Assembly (NCBI GenBank): GCA_964036295.1
Contig: OZ038473.1
Coordinates: forward strand, 4,185,501-4,249,500
DNA length: 64,000 nt
Origin: Plumapathes pennacea
Taxonomy: Eukaryota; Cnidaria; Anthozoa; Antipatharia; Myriopathidae
Direction of reading: 5' to 3'
Shown: piece after piece, positions 9,559 to 60,483 of the stretch
Layout: each line of letters starts with the position of its first letter
How positions within the stretch are numbered: the first letter of the stretch is position 1
Made by a program: the position numbers and the translations under genes
The notes under the pieces: generated by a model
Database searches by the model: none
What the model was told of the DNA's origin: nothing
What the model saw: only the letters and a program-made list of their open reading frames with translations

Positions 9559-12500
9559 AGAGTTGATGTCTGTAAAAATCGAAGAAATGTGGCAATCGGC
9601 GGCCAAAGTCAAAAAATCGAAATCGCTCATACTTTGGTCAGTTGTAGGCATTAGTAAGTAAGAAAACGTGATGTACTTAGTTTGTCCAGATTTCACCTCC
9701 TTTGGGAGAAAATTTGCAAAACGTAATTCGGCCGATTCTCAGGGGAAACAACGATTTTCGATGGTCAAGAAAACCACTCTCGTTCTCACAAACAAATGTA
9801 CCAAGGGCTCTGTACTGGTTGTTTATTTGTTAAATAGGTCTTTAGCTTTCTTCTGAGACGATTGTTCAATGAATACCATTATCTGTGAACTGTTGGTAAA
9901 TTAATAACGGAGGTCATATTTCAGTCACATTTCATTGTCATAATTTATGTCTAATATGAAGCGAGTTTTCACCATGCGCGGGGATTTCAAATACTATGAA
10001 ATTTTGGTTGTGGTTAGTTTGAATGTTGATCTTTTAAACTGCAAAATTGCTCGATTTCACGCAAATGACGTTTGTCTCGCCCACAAGTCGGTTATCGCGT
10101 GGATTGAAAAACACAAATATATTTCTTTTAGGTACTTTCTATCAAAACTGTGACACTTCTGGTAACTCTGTCTTTCGTTGTTGAAAAAAAAAAACTGATC
10201 TAATATCAGTTGTTTGCATGCAAACAAACGTAAAAATTTGCATATATATCGCGTAAAGCGTCTCACTTTAGCAAGGCAAAACGTCGTCCTTTAGAATGAT
10301 ATGTAGGTGAATAAGTGTTTTATTGAGTAGTAATAAACCGATATTTTAACTTTTGGATAATTTAGCGGGCACTGCTGTAAATGCCTCCGCCTTTCAATCC
10401 ACACTTTCGTGACACATTACAAGTTCAGACCGCGGTCACGCACGGGACTGTTCATTCCGGCGACAAAGGAACAATCGGAAAAATAGTCGCCATCTTACCC
10501 TCAAAACAAAACTATGGTCTTCTACAATGATGGCAATTCCGAGACACTGCGATACGTATGACAAATCAGTCATACCAGTGGTGCCTTAGAATGTTTCGTA
10601 ACAGCTCGGGAGTCTATTCTTGCCAGATTGATCATATCAAGATAATTTGAAACTGATAACCCATCGATAAACTAACATTGTTCCTTTATTTTTCGGGTAA
10701 TTTAGGAGGCACTGCTGTAAATATACCCGCCTTTCAATCTACACTTCGTTTATTGGAATAAGTGACTTGTTAGTTTCTTAGATTGAGGTCACGCACGGGA
10801 AGTACTGTTCATTTAACTCAGGACCGCTGACGCCGTTTTCCTCGGTTCGCGGTTATTTCGCTTGGTATTGCTGTTTTCTTTCTTTCTTTCCTTCCTTCCT
10901 TCTTTCTCTACTCTCTCTCTCTCTTTCTTTTTTTTTTTTTTTTTTTTTGCGGATAACACTTCGCAAACACTTTGCAAACTTAGCAAACCATTTTTGTCAG
11001 GGAACTTGTCTCAGTTTCTTCTCTTTTCCATATCCGTTTCCCATTTCATTATTTTGTACATTATTTAATTATCACCTGCATGCTAATATGCTACCCCAAA
11101 CTCACTTCCTCTGCACGTGAAAAGGACGCCATAGTTGTTCCTTTTCAAGAATGCTAAGTTTAATGAGCGACTTTAACCAGGAGTCAGAACGTCATTTGCC
11201 AAAACTTGACTCTGAGAAATCCATTCAAAACTTGTTTTGGCCGTGTTTGGGATTGTGTGGGGGTGAGGGGATGCGCATAAAGGCTCTACTTTGACTCCAA
11301 GATGGTACAGAAAGAGGTAGTACAAAGGTTTGAAACTCTTTGTCGCTGTTTTGACGGCTAATTTATTACAGAACTCTGCATCTTGTGGGGTGAAATTTAT
11401 AGTTTGGAAAAACACCGTCAGAAAATTGAGAAATTAGTTAATTTGTCTAATTCAAATCACTATTCCTCCATCACTCTGCAAGACTAAAATTTGTTTTGAG
11501 GGTATGCAGGAGACTTTTTTTTCAGAAAAATTTTTTTTTTGCCACACTTATATGATGGTATAAACAGTCCCGTGCGTGATCGCGATCTAGGAAACTAAGT
11601 AATGCATTCTTTACAGAGTTTTTAAGGCGAGGGTATTTATTTACAGCGGTGCTCGCTAAATTACCCAAAAGGTAAAGTTTTTGTTTATTACTTTGTCGAT
11701 GAATCGCAAGTGTTCAGCAACAAATCACTCTGAAGGACGACGTTTCGCATTACTTGAATAAGTGGACTACTGATCGCGGTAAATATGCAAATGTTTAGCG
11801 TTTGTTTACATGCGGAAAATTTATGTTAGATCGCGTTGTTTTTATCAATATCTAAAGACAGAGTTTCCAGAAGTGTCACAGTATTGAAGAAAGTACCTAA
11901 AAGAAATACATTTGTGTTTTTCAATCCACGGGATAACCGATTTTTGGGCGAGAGAAACGTCATTCGCGTTAAATGAACGGTACTCTCGTGCTTGACCGCA
12001 ATCTACAAATCTAATGAGTCACGAATTCTAAAACGGCGGGTGTATTTAGTACAGCAGTGCCCCCTAAATTACCCAGAAGGTAAAGGAACAACGTTACTTT
12101 ATCAATGGCTTATCAATTTCAAATTAGCTTAATATGATCAATCTGGCAAGAATAGAGGCCCCCGATCTGTTACGAAATATTCTAAGGCACCACTGGTATG
12201 ACTGATTTGTCATACGTATCACAGTTACTCATTATTGCCATCATTCTATAAGACCGTAATTTTATTGTAAGGGTAAGGTGCCGACTATTTTTCCGATTGT
12301 TTCTTTGTCGCCGGAGTGAACAGTCCCGTGCGTGACCGCGGTCTGAACTTGTAATGTGTCACGAAAGTATGGATTGAAAGGCGGAGGCATTTACAGCAGT
12401 GCCCGCTAAATTATCCAAAAGTTAAAGTATCAGTTTATTATTACTTAATCAAACGCTTATTCACCTACATATCATTCTAAAGGACGACGTTTTGCCTTGC

Positions 12501-13249
12501 TAAAGTGAGACGCTTTTCGCGATATATATGCAAATTTTTACGTTTGTTTACATGCAAAAAACTGATATTAGATCAGTTTTTTTTTCAACAACGAAAGACA
12601 GAGTTACCAGAGGTGTCACAGTTTTGATAGAAAGTACCTAAAAGAAATATATTTGTGTTTTTCAATCCACGCGATAACCGACTTGTGGGCGAGACAAACG
12701 TCATTTGCGTGAAATCGAGCAATTTTGCTGACCTTTTTAGAAGAAATGCTCACAGACCCCAAAAAAGAAAGTCAATAGTTTAAAAGATCAACATTCAAAC
12801 TAACCACAACCAAAATTTCATAGTATTTGAAATCCCCGCGCATGGTGAAAACCCGCTTCATTTTAGACATAAATTATGACAATGAAATGTGACTGAAATA
12901 TGACCTCCGTTATTAATTTACCAATAGTTCACAGATAATGGTATTCATTGAACAATCGTCTCAGAAGAAAGCTAAAGACCTATTTAACAAATAAACAACC
13001 AGTACAGAGCCCTTGGTACATTTGTTTGTGAGAACGAGAGTGATTTTCTTGACCTTCGAAAATCGTTGTTTCTCCTGAGAATCGGCCGAATTACGTTTTG
13101 CAAATTTTCTCCCAAAGGAGGTGAAATCTGGACAAACTAAGTACATCACGTTTTCTTACTTACTAATGCCTACAACTGACCAAAGTATGAGCGATTTTGA
13201 TTTTTTGACTTTGGCCGCTCTTTCTTTGATTCTTACAGACACTTGCTCT
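9559..13249. mobile_element. 3.7-kb foldback DNA element with long inverted arms
   Basis: The left end starts AGAGTTGATGTCTGTAA; the right end, reverse-complemented, starts AGAGCAAGTGTCTGTAA. Arms longer than 1.2 kb are nearly the same sequence: for example the 62-codon frame at 9,668-9,856 recurs on the opposite strand at 12,961-13,149 with about four differences. The arms contain further internal copies of a block with GGTAATTTAG-GGGCACTGCTGTAAAT and CACGCACGGGA. The element splits repeat R at TTA, with TA, TTA or TTAA duplicated at the junctions (the terminal bases are ambiguous). It has no transposase, so it depends on another element. The TA/TTA target would fit PIF/Harbinger-like or similar enzymes, but the superfamily is not proven. 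Confidence 0.75.
10877..10949 (+). repeat. Polypyrimidine tract
   Basis: TTTC, TTCC and CT runs followed by some 20 T residues in the unpaired centre of the foldback element. Simple-sequence DNA; the open frame over it is an artefact of composition. Confidence 0.9.
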
Positions 13250-15028: not shown

Positions 15029-15339
15029 CTTTTATACAAACTCCTTTAAAGGTCAATTGTAATCAGCAAGTTTACATAGTCTCTCGATGAATAACAAACC
15101 GGAACTTTAGTGAATCTATAAACCAAACCAATTAACTAAATCAATAGCATATGCTAACATATAAAACAGAAATAAAGTAAAGTCTATTAGATTTGAAAAT
15201 ATCGTGAAACACCAAATCTATTTTGCTAAACTTGATCTCTGGTTCAAAAAATATATAAATTTGATAAACTTGGAGAGGGGGACATTTTTGCCTGCACCAG
15301 AATGTCCGGCCGGACATTTCAGCCCGGGCCAAAATGTCC

Positions 15340-15360
15340 GGGGGGGGGGGGGGGGGGGGG
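15340..15360 (+). repeat. Poly-G tract
   Basis: An uninterrupted run of about 21 G residues directly after GCCAAAATGTCC. Likely a length-variable and assembly-sensitive site. It also creates artificial glycine or proline frames. Confidence 0.9.
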
Positions 15361-15433
15361 CATCGTGGCCAGGGAGATAAAAAAAGCCTGTTACACCGGT
15401 ACTTACATTTCGATGTGTTTACTATTATCACAG

Positions 15434-15796
15434 GGGTCTTGGCAGGTTGTGAATACAGTTTCACGAAACCCCGAGGGGTCATTACAAGTCCAGGCTTCCC
15501 GGAAGAACATGAAATCATTTCAGATTGTACTTGGACGATAAAGGCTCCTTCTGGAACAGGCATCCTGCTGACCTTTATTACTTTCGATCTGGTAGATCGC
15601 CACCAATGCAAGTACAGCTTCGTTGAAGTTTCTGCCTGGAGTGAAGCCAGCGCAACTCCGGTTGGTCGGTACTGTGGAAACAAGACGTCTTTCACATTAC
15701 ATTTGAACACCGAATTCATGAAGATAAAAATGGTAACAAGAACTATTTTCACCAGAAAAGGATTCAATGCCACTTACCAGTTTGCTTCTATTCTTG
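15434..15796 (+). CDS. CUB-domain exon of a secreted or membrane protein
   Basis: Bounded by a TATTATCACAG acceptor and a TTCTTG|GTAAGT donor, both leaving phase 1, the usual arrangement for shuffled extracellular modules. The 121-residue product is one CUB domain. It has the opening GCEYSFTKPRGVITSPGFPE, then CTWTIKAPSG and the LTFITFDLVDRHQCKYSFVE strand pair. It continues with YCGN and the closing FNATYQFAS strand. Four cysteines are in CUB positions (C-C and C-C pairs). CUB domains bind protein or carbohydrate partners outside the cell. The nearest fitting upstream exon is the signal-peptide exon at 4,576, in a compatible phase. No further exon was found downstream before the transposon-rich stretch, so the gene is incomplete in what I can see. 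Confidence 0.8.
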
Positions 15797-15929
15797 GTAA
15801 GTGTTTGTGCTTTATTCGCTACGTAAGTTGTGCTACAGGTTCTATTTTCCGTATGATGCTGGTACAGATCAGCATTATTATTTAATTCATTTGCATAGGC
15901 GCCCACGGCTAGGCCCTATTCGGATGAGT

Positions 15930-16381: not shown

Positions 16382-17013
16382 CACAATGGATGTTAAATCT
16401 CTTTACATTGTGATTCCGAACGACAAAGGACTGCGAGCACTTCGGCACTTTTTCGACCGCCGCAGTTAAGGAACCCAGTACCGACACTTTGATCCGCTTG
16501 GCCGAATTAGTACTTACCCTCAATTGCTTCTCTTTCGACGACAAATTCTATAGGCAAATTAATGGAGTAGCCATGGGCACCAAAATGGGACCCAATTATG
16601 CAAATCTTTTTGTCGGCTATGTTGAGGAACAATTTTTCGACCAATTCGATGGCCCAGTACCCGAACTTTTCGGCCAATACATCGATGATTGTTTCGGCGC
16701 CACCTCATGTGGCCGACCCGAGCTCGACCGATTTATCCAATTTGTCAATACTTTTCATCCTGCTCTCGAGTTTACCTGGGAAATTTCCACTTTTAGCGTT
16801 ACTTTCCTCGACATCAACGTTTTTATCCAAAACAATGGTTTGGCTACCAGCGTTCACTACAAACCTACTGATTCGCACAGCTATTTGCTTCACCCCTCAC
16901 CTCACATGAAAGATTCAATTCCTTATTCTAAATTTCTTCGGCTTTGTCGACTTTGCAGTGACGACACTGATTTCTCGGCCAAAGCCGACAAAATGCGCAA
17001 TTTTTTTTGCTAA
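16382..17013 (+). pseudogene. Reverse transcriptase of Penelope-like element 2
   Basis: Opens with TMDVKSLYIVIPNDKGLRAL (RT motif A region, aspartate present), then a frameshift near 16,470. It continues in the frame from 16,489 with FDDKFYRQINGVAMGTKMGP and GQYIDDCFG, the catalytic YxDD box intact. FTWEISTFSVTFLDINVFIQ and VHYKPTDSHSYL follow. The frame ends at 17,013 after NFFC, where the poly-T run TTTTTTTT near 17,000 probably caused the shift. The product would copy element RNA during target-primed integration. At least two frameshifts make this copy inactive. Confidence 0.85.
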
Positions 17014-17730
17014 ACGCAACTATCCAAACTCTGTCTTCACCGATGCTCTGGAATGTGTCCACAATATCAGCCGAGAAACTGCCCCGAAGCCGTCCGAATC
17101 TAAGTCCGAAGACAGAATCCCGCTGACCATCACTTATCATCCCAACAGTCTTCGGGTCAAAGACATAGTTCTTAAAAAATTCAAATTACTTCAATCCGAT
17201 CCTGATACTGCCACAATTTTCGAAAAATCACCACTCGTCTCATTCAAACGAGACAAGAGCTTGCGCAATTCCCTAGTCAAAGCTCTTTACCAACAGAACT
17301 TGAACCTGGCACATTCAAATGCTCGCGCAAGCGGTGTAACACATGCCCGTTCATCACAAACACCATTTCGATTTCCGGCCCTAAGAACTCCACCCAAATC
17401 ACCGATCATTTCGACTGCACTTCCCGCAATATCATCTACTGCACACGGTGCACCAGCTGCAATCAGCTTTACATCGGCGAAACAGGACGGAGGTTGAAAG
17501 ATCGTTTCCGCAAACATCTTTTGGATTTGAAAAACAACAGCCAGGGCGTCTCTAAACCAGTAGCTCGGCATTTAAATCAACCTGGTCATTCCCACAACAA
17601 TATGACCATTTTCGGCTTATCTCTTCACCAAGGCAACACCGAATCCCGCAAGTGCACAGAACAGCGCCTGATTTTCAAAATTGGTACCTTATCTCCCGCA
17701 GGAATCAACGAGCGGTTCTCTTTCTCGTAG
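17014..17730 (+). pseudogene. RT thumb/linker and GIY-YIG endonuclease of Penelope-like element 2
   Basis: From 17,010 the frame reads AKRNYPNSVFTDALECVHNI and PLTITYHPNSLRVKDIVLKK. Around 17,300-17,490 the frame moves again, giving CARKRCNTCPFI (a Cys cluster), then CTSCNQLYIGETGRRLKDRF with the GIY-YIG core YIGETGRR, then KPVARHLNQPGHSHNNM and NERFSFS before the stop. The nuclease residues (Y, R, H) are present. This domain nicks target DNA in the family. Order and length match the family's C-terminal half, with two frameshifts. Confidence 0.8.
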
Positions 17731-18950: not shown

Positions 18951-19460
18951 ACGTTTTATTGATTGACACCTATTGTAATTGAATAATTGTGAAACCAGTT
19001 TTCGCACGTGGGTTCGGAAAAGTCAAATAAAGCGACTTTTTAATCTCACGTGGGCTGGGAACTGTCAAATTCGTTTGTTTCTGCTTTGCTTATAATGCTT
19101 TCGAGAAATGCCCACCGTAAAACGCCAACAAAAGTTATAAAACCATACGATATACTGTATGCCGAGTCTGCAGATGCAGCCCAGCAACACTTGGTAGAAG
19201 AAAGTTCAGCAAAATAAATTCACTGAAGAAAAGATCGCGGAGCGACTTGCGAAAGTGTTGGACATGCCGGTGTTGAAAATCGGTGGGGTTTCTTCAGTAA
19301 TATGCTACAAATGCAAACGAGTGCTCCTTTTCTTACTTTGAGCGCTAAAAAAGTTCGTGGATCACTTTGAGATGTTTGATAAATCCCTGTGGGATGGAGA
19401 ACGGCGTCTGCGGCGTAAGTTATGCGAGAAAACTAGCAAATAGTTGAAGTGTTTACCGTC
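18951..19460 (+). repeat. Dispersed repeat V, copy 1 (unoccupied Helitron target)
   Basis: Matches 58,913-58,950 joined to 60,484-60,800, with shared landmarks TTTTATTGATTGACACCTATTG, TGTGAAACCAGTTTT and GAAATGCCCACCGTAAAACG. The open stretch NAHRKTPTKV-KP and AAQQHLVEESSAK is shared by both copies but broken here by a stop. The protein is unknown. Confidence 0.7.
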
Positions 19461-20157: not shown

Positions 20158-22206
20158 GGTTGTGCCTAAATCGTACCAACGGGAAGGACAGCCGCGCAAG
20201 ACTGAAAACGAGTTTAGACCCGATCGCCTCACGACCGAGAATCGGACGATGTCGGTAAATCCAAGATGGCTGTCTTCTGTGTATTTCATCGAACGATGAA
20301 ATGAACAAGCTTTATCGAGTTAAGTGAAATAACGTCGCTTCCTTTCATCATAGTTTAGGCGATTATAATACATATTGAACCTCGTGGCGAACTAAACTGT
20401 AGAAAATGTGACGTGTCCTTCCCGCTGGTACGGTGTAATCGTGTCGTACCAACGGGAAGGACAGAGTGAAATAACTCGACTATTTTAGTCGAGGATCATT
20501 TTAAGTGAAGAGTAAGTGTATCTTCAATAAAATCAAGTGGCATCTCTTCCTTTGGTGGTGATTTAGACAACTGAGGCGAACTAAACTGTGAAAAATGTGA
20601 TGTGTCTTTCCCGCTGGTACGATGGAGTTCGATCGTACCAGCGGGAAATAACCAGACTATCTTTAACCGTATCTTCAGTCGAGGATATACAGAGTAAAAT
20701 TTACCATCGGAAACTCAAGTGGAATTGCTTGACTGAATTATATTTGACACAAAATGAGCCTCACAGTGAAGCAGAGTATAGTAAAGTGTGGGGGTGTCTA
20801 GAAAACTCAGACCTCAGACCTCAGATCTGGAAAACTCAGACCCCCGAAATACGCTAAATGATTTGACCATTCCTTCTCGTAATTACTTTAAACGGAAGCT
20901 GCTCGAGCGAGACACCAAACAATGCGGTATTTTTAGCCATTTCGCAAACATTCAGCAGGGTCTGAGTTTTCCAGATCTGGAAAACTCAGACCCCCCCCCC
21001 CCCCCCCCCAAAAAAAAAAAAAATTACGCGAAACGATTTGATCGTTCCTTCTCGTAATTGCTTTAACCCCCAAAATACATACATCGCCTGTTTCACGGCT
21101 CAATTATGAAACAAGTTTGTCGGATCTCGTTTTACATCATTTGTAATCAACTTGTGACAATGGAACTGGGACGTGGATGTGTGACCTGTCATTTCTGCCA
21201 CGTGACCTGTCTGGAAAGTTATAACTTTAGTCGAATGTTTGCGAAATGGCTAAAAATACCGCATTGTTTGATGTCTCGCTCGAGCAGCGTCCGATTAAAG
21301 TAATTACGAGAAGGAATGGTCGAATCGTTTCGCGTATTTTGGGGGGTCTGAGTTTTCCAGATCTGGAAAACTCAGACCCAGCCAAATGTTTGCGAAATGG
21401 CTAAAAATACCGCATTGTTTGATGTCTCGCTCGAGCAGCTTCCGTTTAAAGTAATTACGAGAAGGAATGGTCGAATCATTTAGCGTATTTTGGGGGTCTG
21501 AGTTTTCCAGATCTGAGGTCTGAGGTCTGAGGTCTGAGTTTTCTAGACACCCTAAGTGTGATGTCCTTTCCGCTGGTACGCTGTCTTCGGATTGTCGTAG
21601 GCTCATTTTGTGTCAAATATAATTCAGTCAAGCAATTCTACTTAAGTTTCCGATGGTACATTTTACTCTGTATATCCTCGACTGAAGATACGGTTAAAGA
21701 TAGTCTGGTTATTTCCCGCTATCCTTTCCGCTGGTACGATCGAACTCCATCGTACCAGCGGGAAAGACACATCACATTTTCCACAGTTTAGTTCGCCTCA
21801 GTTGTCTAAATCACCACCAAAGGAAGAGATGCCACTTGATTTTATTGAAGATACACTTACTCTTCACTTAAAATGATTCTCGACTAAAATAGTCGAGTTA
21901 TTTCACTCTGTCCTTCCCGTTGGTACGACACGATTACACCGTACCAGCGGGAAGGACACGTCACATTTTCTACAGTTTAGTTCGCCACGAGGTTCAATAT
22001 GTATTATAATCGTCTAAACTATGATGAAAGGAAGCGATGTTATTTCACTTAACTCAATAAGGCTTGTTCATTTCATCGTTCGATGAAATACACAGAAGAC
22101 AGGATTTACCGACATCGTCCGATTCTCGGTCGTGAGGCGATCGGATCTAAACTCGTTTTCAGTCTTGCGCGGCTGTCCTTCCCGTTGGTACGATTTAGGC
22201 ACAACC
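20158..22206. mobile_element. 2,049-bp palindromic DNA transposon with 9-bp target duplication
   Basis: Both ends read GGTTGTGCCTAAATCGTACC inward. Arms of about 0.6 kb are nearly perfect inverted copies; the centre (20,790-21,590) is itself built of inverted blocks with TCTGAGTTTTCCAGATCTGG. Each arm contains smaller hairpins CCTTCCCGCTGGTACG...CGTACCA-CGGGAAGG. The flanks are GATTTGAAT at 20,149-20,157 and again at 22,207-22,215, a 9-bp direct duplication. The neighbouring tandem unit at 20,026 shows the uninterrupted sequence GATTTGAATGTTGTTC. A 9-bp duplication with very long TIRs is characteristic of Mutator-like elements. No transposase is present, so it is non-autonomous; the superfamily call is inference. 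Confidence 0.85.
20987..21022 (+). repeat. Poly-C followed by poly-A
   Basis: About 20 C then 13 A residues near the centre of the palindrome, absent from the mirror position. A local expansion, or a site where assembly length is unreliable. Confidence 0.85.
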
Positions 22207-22266: not shown

Positions 22267-22351
22267 ATCACGTGATTTTTTCCTGCGAGTTCGTTGCTAA
22301 GAAACAGTTTGTTGGAAAGGAAGGAGAATTTGAACAAGAAGAGTTTAAGAA

Positions 22352-22864
22352 ATGAATTCAGGGAAAGAACAAACGGAACATTCTGATTCTCACAATAACG
22401 ACCAAGCTCGCCTTCAAAGACGAAGGGAGCAAGCAAGATTAAGACGAAGTCGTGAGACCAGCCAACAGCGGTGTATTCGTCTCGAGCGCAGACGGCAAGC
22501 AACGCGTACGAGTCGACTAAAACAGCAGACCGGCCCAGAAATTACTGCTGCAAAAAAAAAACAAAAACAAAGACAAGACCGTGACCGAGAGCGTTACAAG
22601 CAGAAGCTAGCTCGGGAGACAACTCAGGAAAGAGAAGAGCGCTTGAAAGCTAATAGGCAATGGGTTGCTTCCCGACGCTACAGTGAAACGTGCGAAGAAA
22701 GAGCCTGTAGGCTTCATGCTCAAAATGCTCAAAATGAGGCCAACAGTCGACGCCGTGAGCAACGTTCGTCTCTTGTCGAAGAACGACGCTTCCAAAGACA
22801 GCAATATCTGCATAGCCGTGGATGGGCTAACCCTGACAACCCGGCTCTACACGAACAGCCGTGA
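22352..22864 (+). CDS. Arg/Glu-rich STPR-like repeat protein, 170 aa
   Basis: The ATG follows a purine-rich leader. The product is strongly charged and built of about 23-residue units with the pattern R-E-T-x-Q-x-R-x-x-R-L, for example RRSRETSQQRCIRLERRRQA, KLARETTQEREERLKANRQW and RYSETCEERACRLHAQ. This fits the STPR ('score and three amino acid peptide repeat') pattern, a long-helix DNA-binding repeat known from the silkworm protein FMBP-1 and, to my knowledge, from N-termini of Helitron/PIF1-helicase-like proteins in invertebrates. The C-terminal half, after RQQYLHSRGW, leaves the pattern. A CAG|GTAAGA donor at about 22,951 lies downstream of the stop. Helitron termini were not found around it, unlike the family members at 47.7 and 59.3 kb. 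It could be a diverged element ORF or a host exon. Confidence 0.6.
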   Translation: MNSGKEQTEHSDSHNNDQARLQRRREQARLRRSRETSQQRCIRLERRRQATRTSRLKQQTGPEITAAKKKQKQRQDRDRERYKQKLARETTQEREERLKANRQWVASRRYSETCEERACRLHAQNAQNEANSRRREQRSSLVEERRFQRQQYLHSRGWANPDNPALHEQP

Positions 22865-23873: not shown

Positions 23874-24641
23874 CATCGCCAGAAATTCCGGACATTTTGC
23901 GTCCACGATTGCTTCCGGTCTTTCCCAGCGGCGTGCGGTATGAGCATGCGCCATTCACACATTCAACATTGTTACGTACTTTGCCTCAGTGGGGTGGGGG
24001 AGGGATGGGTTTCTCCGGTTCAAAAAGAGACTGCTACGTTTAGGAGACGTGCCGCTGAACGACCTAGTTGAAATTAGCTTTCGTTTGGTACAATTTTCAT
24101 GCGATTTGGAGCTTCCCAGCCCAAAATATCAACATCCGAAGTCAGCGTATTTCACGGGAGGTATTCGCCATGGCTGGCTGTGAACTGCAAATTCAAACAC
24201 AAAAAGTACACATCGAATTTGCTCCAGGGGACTGACTGAGGCTTCACAGGAGATGTTCAATCCTTCGACAATCAGGTACGGGGTAGACATTTTGCGTTTT
24301 ACCCAAGGTTCTTGTATTAAATGCAGCTTAAAAAGTGACAGTAGCCGGTTTTGAGCGTATTCTGCTATCAATCCCTTCTTACGTCGGCCGAAATTTTAAA
24401 TTCAAAAAAGTACACATCGAATTTTACCGGAGATAAATATTTTTTGTACTGTTGTGTTTAGGAAGCTTTCCTCTTCCGAATGCTGCCCAGACATTTTTAC
24501 GAACGTGCTTCAGTTAAGCGAAAAGCACAATTTATTATCAGATCCCATACATTTCTTTGTTATTTCTTGAGCGGCTGTCAGCGTGAAACCTGATGCCTCT
24601 TCCGAGATGGCGCAACCGGATGTCTGAAATTTCTGGCGATG
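23874..24641. mobile_element. 768-bp element with short terminal inverted repeats
   Basis: The left end CATCGCCAGAAATTCCGGACAT mirrors the right end ATGTCTGAAATTTCTGGCGATG, about 20 bp with a few mismatches. No convincing target duplication or transposase was seen. The short open frames inside lack known domains. A weakly supported non-autonomous element. Confidence 0.45.
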
Positions 24642-28839: not shown

Positions 28840-28880
28840 AATACTTGGGCGTGGGGCCTCTGCGAATATCGTATTTCTAG
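28840..28880 (+). mobile_element. Isolated Helitron-like 3' end
   Basis: GGGGCCTCTGCGAATATCGT then ATTTCTAG|T matches the 3' ends at 46,980 and 60,483 (CTGCGATTATCGTATTTCTAG). The body upstream is not recognisable as this family, so it may be a distant or truncated copy. Confidence 0.4.
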
Positions 28881-36968: not shown

Positions 36969-37362
36969 TCCCCGAGCGAAGCGAAGTGAGGGTAATAATC
37001 ACGGCGCTAATGCAGCAAATTCGCTTTGTGTGGAGACTCCAAGCGAGTCGCCATCTCGAAATCTAATGTTCGTCAGTCAGTCTGTCAGTCTGTCATAGGG
37101 CGACCTCTAAGGCAATGACGTAATAATAATTATCGATTAGCGTCAAAGCGAGGTCAAGCAAAGGTTTGAACGAAGCAACAACTGTACGTAACTGCGTTCA
37201 CGAAGATGAATTTGAAAACTGGAAAACTTGACACAGCACGGTCTCGCGAAGCTCGTCTGCAAAAGAGAAGGGAACTAGCCGGGCAAAGCGAAATCGTGAA
37301 ACAATCGAACAGCGCCAAATAAATACGTCTAGAGAAAAGACGACAAACATTTGATAACCGAC
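36969..37362 (+). mobile_element. STPR-Helitron copy, 5' part
   Basis: Starts TCCCCGAGCGAAGCGAAGTG after an A, the Helitron-like 5' terminus. It runs through CTCCAAGCGAGTCGCCATCT and the STPR start at 37,208 (MNLKTGKLDTARSREARLQK). The frame is broken at about 37,275 and stops. Similarity to 48,170-47,750 (opposite strand) ends at TTTGATAACCGAC, where an AT-rich array begins. Confidence 0.75.
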
Positions 37363-58912: not shown

Positions 58913-58950
58913 CGAATATCACTCCATGTTTTATTGATTGACACCTATTG
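58913..58950 (+). repeat. Repeat V, copy 2, left half
   Basis: TTTTATTGATTGACACCTATTG, equal to 18,953-18,971. It continues at 60,484 after the Helitron. Confidence 0.8.
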
Positions 58951-60483
58951 TCCCCGAACGAAGTGAGGGAAATACTCACGACACTAATGCAGTAATATTA
59001 TACCGCCTACTTGTGTTATACCGCCTACTTGGGGACTCCAAGCCTGTCGCCATCTCGAAATTTAACGTTGTCTGTCAGTCAGTCAGTCAGTCAGTCAGTC
59101 TGGCGTACGACTTAAGGCGCGGTTATCCCGCTAACCAATAACAAAGGCCAGATCGATCACGTGTGCCCTGTTGTTTTACTCGGAATAACTTAGAGAAATT
59201 AGATTTGAACGAAGCATTTAGATTTGAACGAAGCAACAATATATCGTAGCTGCGTTCACGAAAATGGAAAACTTAACTGAAAAACTTGAAACACAAAAGT
59301 CTCGCGAAGCTTGTCTTCAAATAAGAAGGGAACAGGCACGAGCAAGGCGAAATCGTGAAACGAGCGAACAACAGCGCATGAATGCCGATCGAAAGCGACT
59401 CGAACAGAAGCGGGTAACGCAGACAACTCCGCAAAGAGAACAGCGCTTGAACGCAAATCGGAAACTTCAGGAGAAAAAGCGGGCCGAAGAGAAGACTCCG
59501 CAAAGACAACAGCGCATGAATGCCGACCAAAAGCGACATGAACAGAAGCGGGTCAACACAGACAACTCCGCAAAGGGAACAGCGCTTGAAAGCAAATCGG
59601 GAGCTTCAGACGCCGTTTTGTGTTGAACTCAGATCCTTATTTAGAAAGGACAAGCAACAAAGGTTAGTCAGTGGAAATCGAAAAATCACCCTGACAAATA
59701 TATTCTATCCCGTATAGCTTGTAACTCGATCACTTCAAGAATGTATTAAAATCTGTATGCTGATCATTTTCCCTCGAAGTATTGTTTTACTACGCTTCTG
59801 TCGCCAGTTTCGGCTACCGTATTCGCTCAGAGCAATCGGAACTTGGAGTCTTGAATGATTTAGTCAGATGACTAGTTATTTTTCTGTAATCTGACACGCG
59901 GTGATTGCAGCGAGAATCGTTCACAAGCCCTTAGAAGTATGACAAGGTCTGAAGCCCGTGTATAATTTGAAGTAAACTGTTCAAGTTTTGCTTTGATTCT
60001 GGGAGAAATCTTGCTGTTTTGAGTGGGTTCACATACAAAACAATTCGAGACCTATTAAATATGCATGCCTGAGTCTGGTGCATGCAGTAGTAAAAACAAA
60101 TCGCACAGGAAGCCTATTTAATTGTACTGCCTATGAATTCAAAATTGGAAAATCAGTGTTCCTTTTTTCCCGTACTACGACGGCCGACCAACTTCAAACT
60201 TTCAGTATTAAATTTCGAGAACGTGCTTGGCAGACTGTATGAATTAATTTGACTTGCCGACCGTGGGAAATAGGTACTTCGTCACGCAATCGATTCTTTT
60301 TTCAACGCAAAAGTATAACAAACACCATTCTTTTTCTCCTTCCTTTGCATGTAGCACTTGAGTTCGAAGAAAAGATCGAGTCAACATTTCGGTAAAACAA
60401 AGGCTACTCTTGTTGGGAGTTACCAAAGTAAAAGTCCCATCAATGGCAGAGTGAGGGGGTATGTGCGATTATCGTATTTCTAG
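58951..60483 (+). mobile_element. STPR-Helitron, complete copy, 1,533 bp, no target duplication
   Basis: It starts TCCCCGAACGAAGTGAGGG and ends ATTATCGTATTTCTAG, followed by T: 5'-TC and 3'-CTRR are the Helitron hallmarks. The empty site in repeat V copy 1 reads CACCTATTGTAATTGA; here it is CACCTATTG, element, TAATTGA, so nothing was duplicated or lost. The element carries one STPR ORF and then about 850 bp of non-coding DNA. A Rep/helicase gene is absent, so it depends on an autonomous partner. A clear 3' hairpin is not obvious by eye. The usual A|T target is G|T here. Confidence 0.85.
59264..59626 (+). CDS. STPR-like repeat protein carried by the Helitron, 120 aa as read
   Basis: MENLTEKLETQKSREACLQI is followed by units of about 23 residues: RARRNRETSEQQRMNADRKR, QTTPQREQRLNANRKLQEKK, then TPQRQQRMNADQKRHEQKRV. 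Each has the T-x-Q-x-R-x-x-R-(L/M) core of STPR repeats. A 1-nt frameshift near 59,560 ends the pattern; in the other frame it continues TTPQREQRLKANRELQTPFC to a stop at 59,717. The intact ORF would thus be about 150 codons. STPR proteins bind DNA along a long basic helix; a role in binding element ends or target DNA is inference. It is the only protein encoded by this element. Confidence 0.7.
   Translation: MENLTEKLETQKSREACLQIRREQARARRNRETSEQQRMNADRKRLEQKRVTQTTPQREQRLNANRKLQEKKRAEEKTPQRQQRMNADQKRHEQKRVNTDNSAKGTALESKSGASDAVLC

Follow-up and report, generated by a model that had tools for sequence, protein, structure and literature searches.

What kind of mobile element is the 1533-bp sequence at positions 58951-60483 (+) of the 64,000-nt stretch of Plumapathes pennacea DNA analysed here (hereafter the window), what would move it, and what determines where it lands? 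The coordinates, TC start and CTAG|T end given in the original prediction proved correct to the base on direct reading: the occupied site runs ...TTGACACCTATTG|TCCCCGAACG...TTATCGTATTTCTAG|TAATTGACTAATTG..., with a G on the 5' side of the element and a T on its 3' side, a left flank of CACCTATTG and a right flank of TAATTGA, and the same TC...CTAG ends recur in other copies. The three target bases before the element (-3 to -1; 58948-58950, +) read TTG, a case of the pattern TNR|T. Between the ends lies a relic ORF of 120 aa with STPR-like repeats (59264-59623, +; stop-to-stop frame 59228-59626). Of 41 copies, 35 have an assignable ORF start, and 18 of these 35 stop within 53 codons. A Pfam scan of four ORFs of the element gave no family. 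For the sequence that separates the relic ORF from the 3' end, some 840 bp, no source was found, nor any sign of a captured host gene. Across the window, nothing reached the Rfam gathering score, and ARAGORN predicted no tRNA.

An element of this kind would depend on a partner encoding Rep and helicase domains behind the same ends, and such partners were found, with RepHel fused to OTU, in copies on contigs C1 and C12. The PF14214 (Helitron_like_N) profile has at least 150 matches in the genome (150 scored of 209 candidates) and none in 14 control genomes; on C1, a copy of the 5' end is followed 2.8 kb downstream by one such match, at 12.227 Mb. The ORF at this 12.2-Mb locus, 1603 aa long, contains Helitron_like_N (1.3e-29), PIF1 (1.5e-26) and OTU (3.7e-11) domains, and against solved structures it matches Pif1 helicases, its helicase part matching Helraiser 7lcc (1.4e-15). 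It is preceded by a 517-aa ORF whose repeats resemble those of the window relic ORF, and the two ORFs are probably a single interrupted gene, since a DUF6570 domain begins at the end of the former and continues into the latter. The two presumed catalytic motifs, HUH (here IHAH) and YxxKY, we identified by eye in the partner protein. The relic ORF is homologous to the N-terminal part of this RepHel gene, and the DNA at 59220-59610 is 77% identical to the partner locus. Scans of the two main ORFs and of six downstream ORFs (the six taken from 13 of at least 80 aa listed for the stretch) revealed neither a DDE domain, whose presence would have spoken against the original prediction, nor an AP-endonuclease domain; Pfam gave no family for the downstream six. 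A DDE partner is rejected, as the RepHel domains are present and the scanned ORFs hold no DDE domain.

The ends tie these loci to the window element. Its 5' terminal 42 bp (58951-58992, +) are 93% identical to the 12.2-Mb partner, and its first 63 bp are identical in a third coding copy, which shares the same 5' end (L066, C1 at 36.4 Mb); the 3' ends of these two C1 copies were not found in the stretches examined there. The 3' terminal 35 bp (60449-60483, +) are 97% identical to a 12.3-kb coding-type copy, C12:5940907-5953201 (12,295 bp), which has both the 5' and the 3' end of the window element. Its Rep frame is presumed intact from its PF14214 match and from the 98.6% identity between its 3' part and the C1 copy, the sequence read being that on either side of C12:5941001-5947299. 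Because the ends are common to RepHel partners and the relic ORF corresponds to the beginning of the partner gene, we read the window element as a non-autonomous rolling-circle element, a Helitron that would be moved by the RepHel transposase of roughly 12-kb partners sharing its ends. We put the probability of this reading at roughly 0.96. Two other parts of the window resemble partner sequence: a second STPR-like ORF at 22349-22864 (+) resembles a Helitron N-terminus, and 23874-24641 is 95% identical to a downstream part of the 12.2-Mb partner locus.

A short imperfect palindrome, GTGCGATTATCGTAT, lies at 60463-60477 (+), 6 nt before the 3' end; it spans 15 nt (GTGCGA-TTA-TCGTAT) with six pairs including wobbles, and folding gives z-scores of -1.37 for the window end and of -1.53 and -0.71 for two variants of it. 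The 3' hairpin, which was not evident to the original prediction, is weak and not absent. In canonical Helitrons the hairpin measures 16-20 nt and lies about 10-15 nt from the 3' end; it is both stronger and farther from the end than the palindrome here. An ungapped comparison of the first and last 60 bp of the window copy gave no terminal inverted repeat above chance (7 bp at best, reached in 301 of 2000 shuffles), and a direct repeat shared by both ends, AGTGAGGG, is weak since 96 of 2000 shuffles reach the same. We consider it unlikely, if still the most serious of the alternatives, that the family is of Helentron or Helitron2 type and not canonical: the weak palindrome would suit either, and OTU domains such as the partner's are reported for Helentrons in the accessible text of PMC4067079 and PMC9741609, but the TC...CTAG ends argue against both, the AP endonuclease fused to RepHel in Helentrons is absent from the ORFs scanned, and the asymmetric terminal inverted repeats of Helitron2 have no counterpart above chance in the window copy.

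As a non-autonomous Helitron the window element is well supported but unremarkable, since the genome (290 Mb in 24 contigs) contains Helitron ends by the thousand; its value is statistical. The exact 5' 18-mer occurs 1477 times and the exact 3' 17-mer 2832 times, while the reversed patterns used as controls do not occur at all, which excludes chance for the ends. At least 37 near-full-length copies are among the 46 matches listed (40 scored of 3372 first-look candidates). The end points predicted from the single copy recur in the others: among 30 copies examined with their flanks, three of which (L003-L005) have common flanks, all start with TC and 29 end in CTAG, the exception (L010) missing its last bases. 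Comparison of 41 copies of 1.3-1.6 kb showed L034 to be identical to L036, and L003 to L009 over their aligned bases; in both cases the identical copies occupy different sites, which suggests recent movement. Some copies are nested in their own family, L036 in a 3' palindrome and L028 and L048/L049 in the 5' region. L036 splits another copy's palindrome of this type into halves, TATCTGCGATTA on one side and TCGTATTT on the other.

Paralogous empty sites reveal what the target looked like before insertion. The one predicted within the window is borne out: by direct reading, and by a search allowing substitutions only, 18967-18982 (+) holds CACCTATTG|TAATTGA, that is CACCTATTGTAATTGA, uninterrupted through the junction. 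When the flanks of the element are joined and aligned with the region at 18.8-19.3 kb, identity is 87.2% over 501 bp (39 mismatches, seven gap openings), the junction itself being ungapped; in the substitution-only search a single substitution separates the central 40 bases from the empty site. A genome search with 100 bases spanning this empty site matched seven places, three of which (L071-L073, all on the same contig) cross the junction at 95-96% and read CACCTATTG|TAATTGA; the remaining four are the window empty site itself, C12:6630007 (which starts at the junction), the occupied right flank and one weaker match.

The same comparison was extended to genome copies by joining the flanks of 34 sites with both ends (L012 (+) and L028 (+) covering longer stretches, and L035 being a 323-bp copy) and comparing them with the copy loci and the window DNA. 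A match bridges the junction in 14 of the 34, and for seven insertions (L001, L003, L009, L012, L027, L028 and L055) the empty site is clear and ungapped; L002, L007, L015, L021, L025, L030 and L056, diverged or of low complexity, were left out of this count. Five of the seven (L009, L012, L027, L028 and L055) are exact over 40 bp, and L001 and L003 show one and four substitutions, respectively, in the substitution-only search, with which the gapped alignments agree. The empty sites of L003, L009, L027 and L055 are neighbouring repeat units of one locus, that of L012 was found in two other loci, and the target of L028 was a second member of the family. Helitron-type insertion, which the original prediction had proposed to check by comparing copies with such paralogues, is supported by these seven ungapped cases.

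The junctions also reveal a target preference that the original prediction does not mention. Genome-wide, a T stands three bases before the cut at 1472 of the 1477 5' ends (99.7%), as it does at all 59 examined 5' junctions and all 34 sites with both ends, against a background of 5024 of the 17542 R|T positions in the window (28.6%); copies from segmental duplications are not independent, and binomial values for the target bases overstate certainty. With T at -3, the base at -1 is A in 1081 copies (73%), G in 247 (17%) and another base in 144, the last group reading TTT in every case within the first 100 listed. On the 3' side, +1 is T in 2792 of 2832 ends, and +1 T is followed by +2 A in 2051 of the 2832. 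Thus in the family of the window element A at -1 is a preference and no strict rule, and a rule that asks for T three bases before the cut is sharper than the description of an A next to a T. The suggestion that a G|T target marks a distinct subgroup does not survive these counts: the base at -1 varies within one family, and G|T is rejected as a subgroup mark.

All seven clear empty sites already have T at -3, and this base therefore belongs to the target and not to the element. That the T is instead part of the element is very improbable. Its near-invariance would fit such a reading, as would the relatives of two sites: among 17 relatives of the L025 site (78-84% identity) the base at -3 is A in nine and G in eight, with no T, and among seven relatives of the L007 site it is A in three and T in four. 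Against it, positions -2 and -1 are variable, the seven empty sites (five exact over 40 bp) carry the T without the element, and round the junction the relatives of L025 and L007 show several further base differences, so that divergence of array units is the likely cause of these misfits.

The junction counts also limit how much of the target could have been duplicated. The window pair had been taken as direct evidence for Helitron insertion, and it stands in that no gap occurs at the junction; with G at -1, on the other hand, it is by itself compatible with a 2-bp GT duplication. Such a duplication is ruled out by other copies, which are mostly at A|T (e.g., L009 and L027): an A at -1, as in the majority of copies, leaves no ambiguity beyond the shared T. 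Insertion takes place without target-site duplication or loss, a 1-bp T remaining formally ambiguous. We give next to no credence to a cut-and-paste (DDE) element with a 2-bp GT or 1-bp T target duplication, which the window pair alone would fit as TATT-GT-[CCCC...CTA]-GT-AATT, but against which stand the A|T copies whose exact empty sites leave just 1 bp ambiguous, the chance-level inverted terminal match and a partner with RepHel domains and no DDE in the scanned ORFs.

The -3 T appears to be common to two families, the second judged from its 5' junctions. Two PF14214 loci of another type diverge upstream of TTGCTCGTGGCG, and this 24-mer occurs 141 times, with T at -3 in 139 of them; the Rep region of the second family, taken from one locus, is 25% identical to the partner Rep over 187 aa. 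Sister families also left traces, in a related repeat and within the window. At L070 (C12:6628400-6630100), another copy of the repeat that holds the window insertion site, the 3' end of a sister-family Helitron at position 1608 adjoins a right flank identical to that of the window element (CTAG|TAATTGAATAATTG). A single target site may thus have received two insertions; the left junction of this sister copy was not found in the stretch examined. By fuzzy matching, Helitron-type 3' ends of sister families lie in the window at 28880, 36255 and 46980 (+), and 5' ends at 36969 (+) and 48170 (-), both with T at -3.

How might a Helitron come to demand such a target? For an element moved by RepHel, the HUH nuclease would nick one strand at the 5' junction, the nicked strand would be displaced as far as the 3' CTAG and converted into a circle, and the circle strand would then enter a target site that has likewise been nicked. 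Taken with the base that follows it, the 3' end of the element, cTAG|T, satisfies TNR|T. The circle junction expected from work on Helraiser, CTAG|TC in the accessible part of PMC5876387, satisfies it as well (cTAG|TC). The simplest reading would be a single HUH nicking specificity serving the target, both ends and the circle. We tentatively propose, at somewhat under even odds, that Helitron transposases read T-N-R|T, most strongly the T at -3, at the target, the donor 5' junction, the 3' terminus and the circle junction. IS91-like HUH elements provide a precedent for a single nicking specificity. If the proposal is true, a single nicking specificity would underlie both the textbook A|T rule and the conserved CTRR end; if the target rule is general, the conserved CTRR end of Helitrons would be tied to target choice and the HUH nuclease would have a directly testable specificity.

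The window holds further features of different kinds. Large inverted-repeat (fold-back) structures occupy 9599-13218 and 20158-22206, their arms up to 98-99% complementary; a CUB domain stretch lies at 15268-15885 (+; E 4.7e-22); and 16414-17730 (+) shows weak reverse transcriptase (E 0.038) and GIY-YIG (E 0.0006) similarity, both below curated cut-offs, which we take to be possibly a Penelope-like element.

Placed among known systems, the element shows the features of the Helitron superfamily, namely a partner with the same ends that encodes an HUH Rep (motifs by eye) and a PIF1-like helicase, and, in seven insertions, no duplication or loss of target bases beyond the ambiguous 1-bp T. Its 30 of 30 TC starts and 29 of 30 CTAG ends agree with the 5'-TC and CTRR-3' of canonical Helitrons (Helitron1); an insertion always between A and T does not, given +1 T in 2792 of 2832 3' ends and, for the 1477 5' ends, 1081 with A at -1 and 247 with G, both counted together with T at -3. 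The comparisons that follow refer to the accessible portions of the cited papers. Canonical Helitrons are described as inserting at AT (PMC4778049, PMC4067079, PMC13286980), and Helraiser as using an AT dinucleotide in AT-rich DNA, 46 of its 1751 insertions lying elsewhere (PMC4778049, PMC5876387). Like Helraiser/Helibat1 (PMC4778049, PMC5876387) and the wheat Xuan-Feng (PMC13286980), the family has 5'-TC and CTAG-3' ends, no target duplication, T at +1, a RepHel partner and many non-autonomous copies. In contrast to the AT rule as worded for Helraiser and Xuan-Feng, logos apart, A at -1 with T at -3 accounts here for 73% and T at -3 for 99.7%; the palindrome is also short, weak and near the end, and RepHel is fused to OTU. 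Helentrons (PMC4067079) share the OTU protease with the partner, but have a C-terminal endonuclease, of which the ORFs scanned here contain none, and a preference for T-rich sites; proto-Helentron-Pi in the same source starts with 5' TT, ends with 3' CTAG and has its insertion point between A and T.

Among the titles and abstracts found by searching the open-licence literature, none states a -3 T, TTA or logo-type rule, figures lying outside this search, so that a logo could be missed. The many clean insertions of this genome reveal a rule for the target that goes beyond the customary A|T wording in strictness. For a TNR|T-type target there is a fungal precedent: in the accessible text of PMC5148889, FoHeli1 and FoHeli2 of Fusarium oxysporum insert between TNAT and A. 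Those elements have asymmetric terminal inverted repeats and an ATTTT end (Helitron2-like), whereas the family described here has TC...CTAG without inverted repeats, yet if the ambiguous T is taken into account, the two have the same target consensus, TNA|TA.
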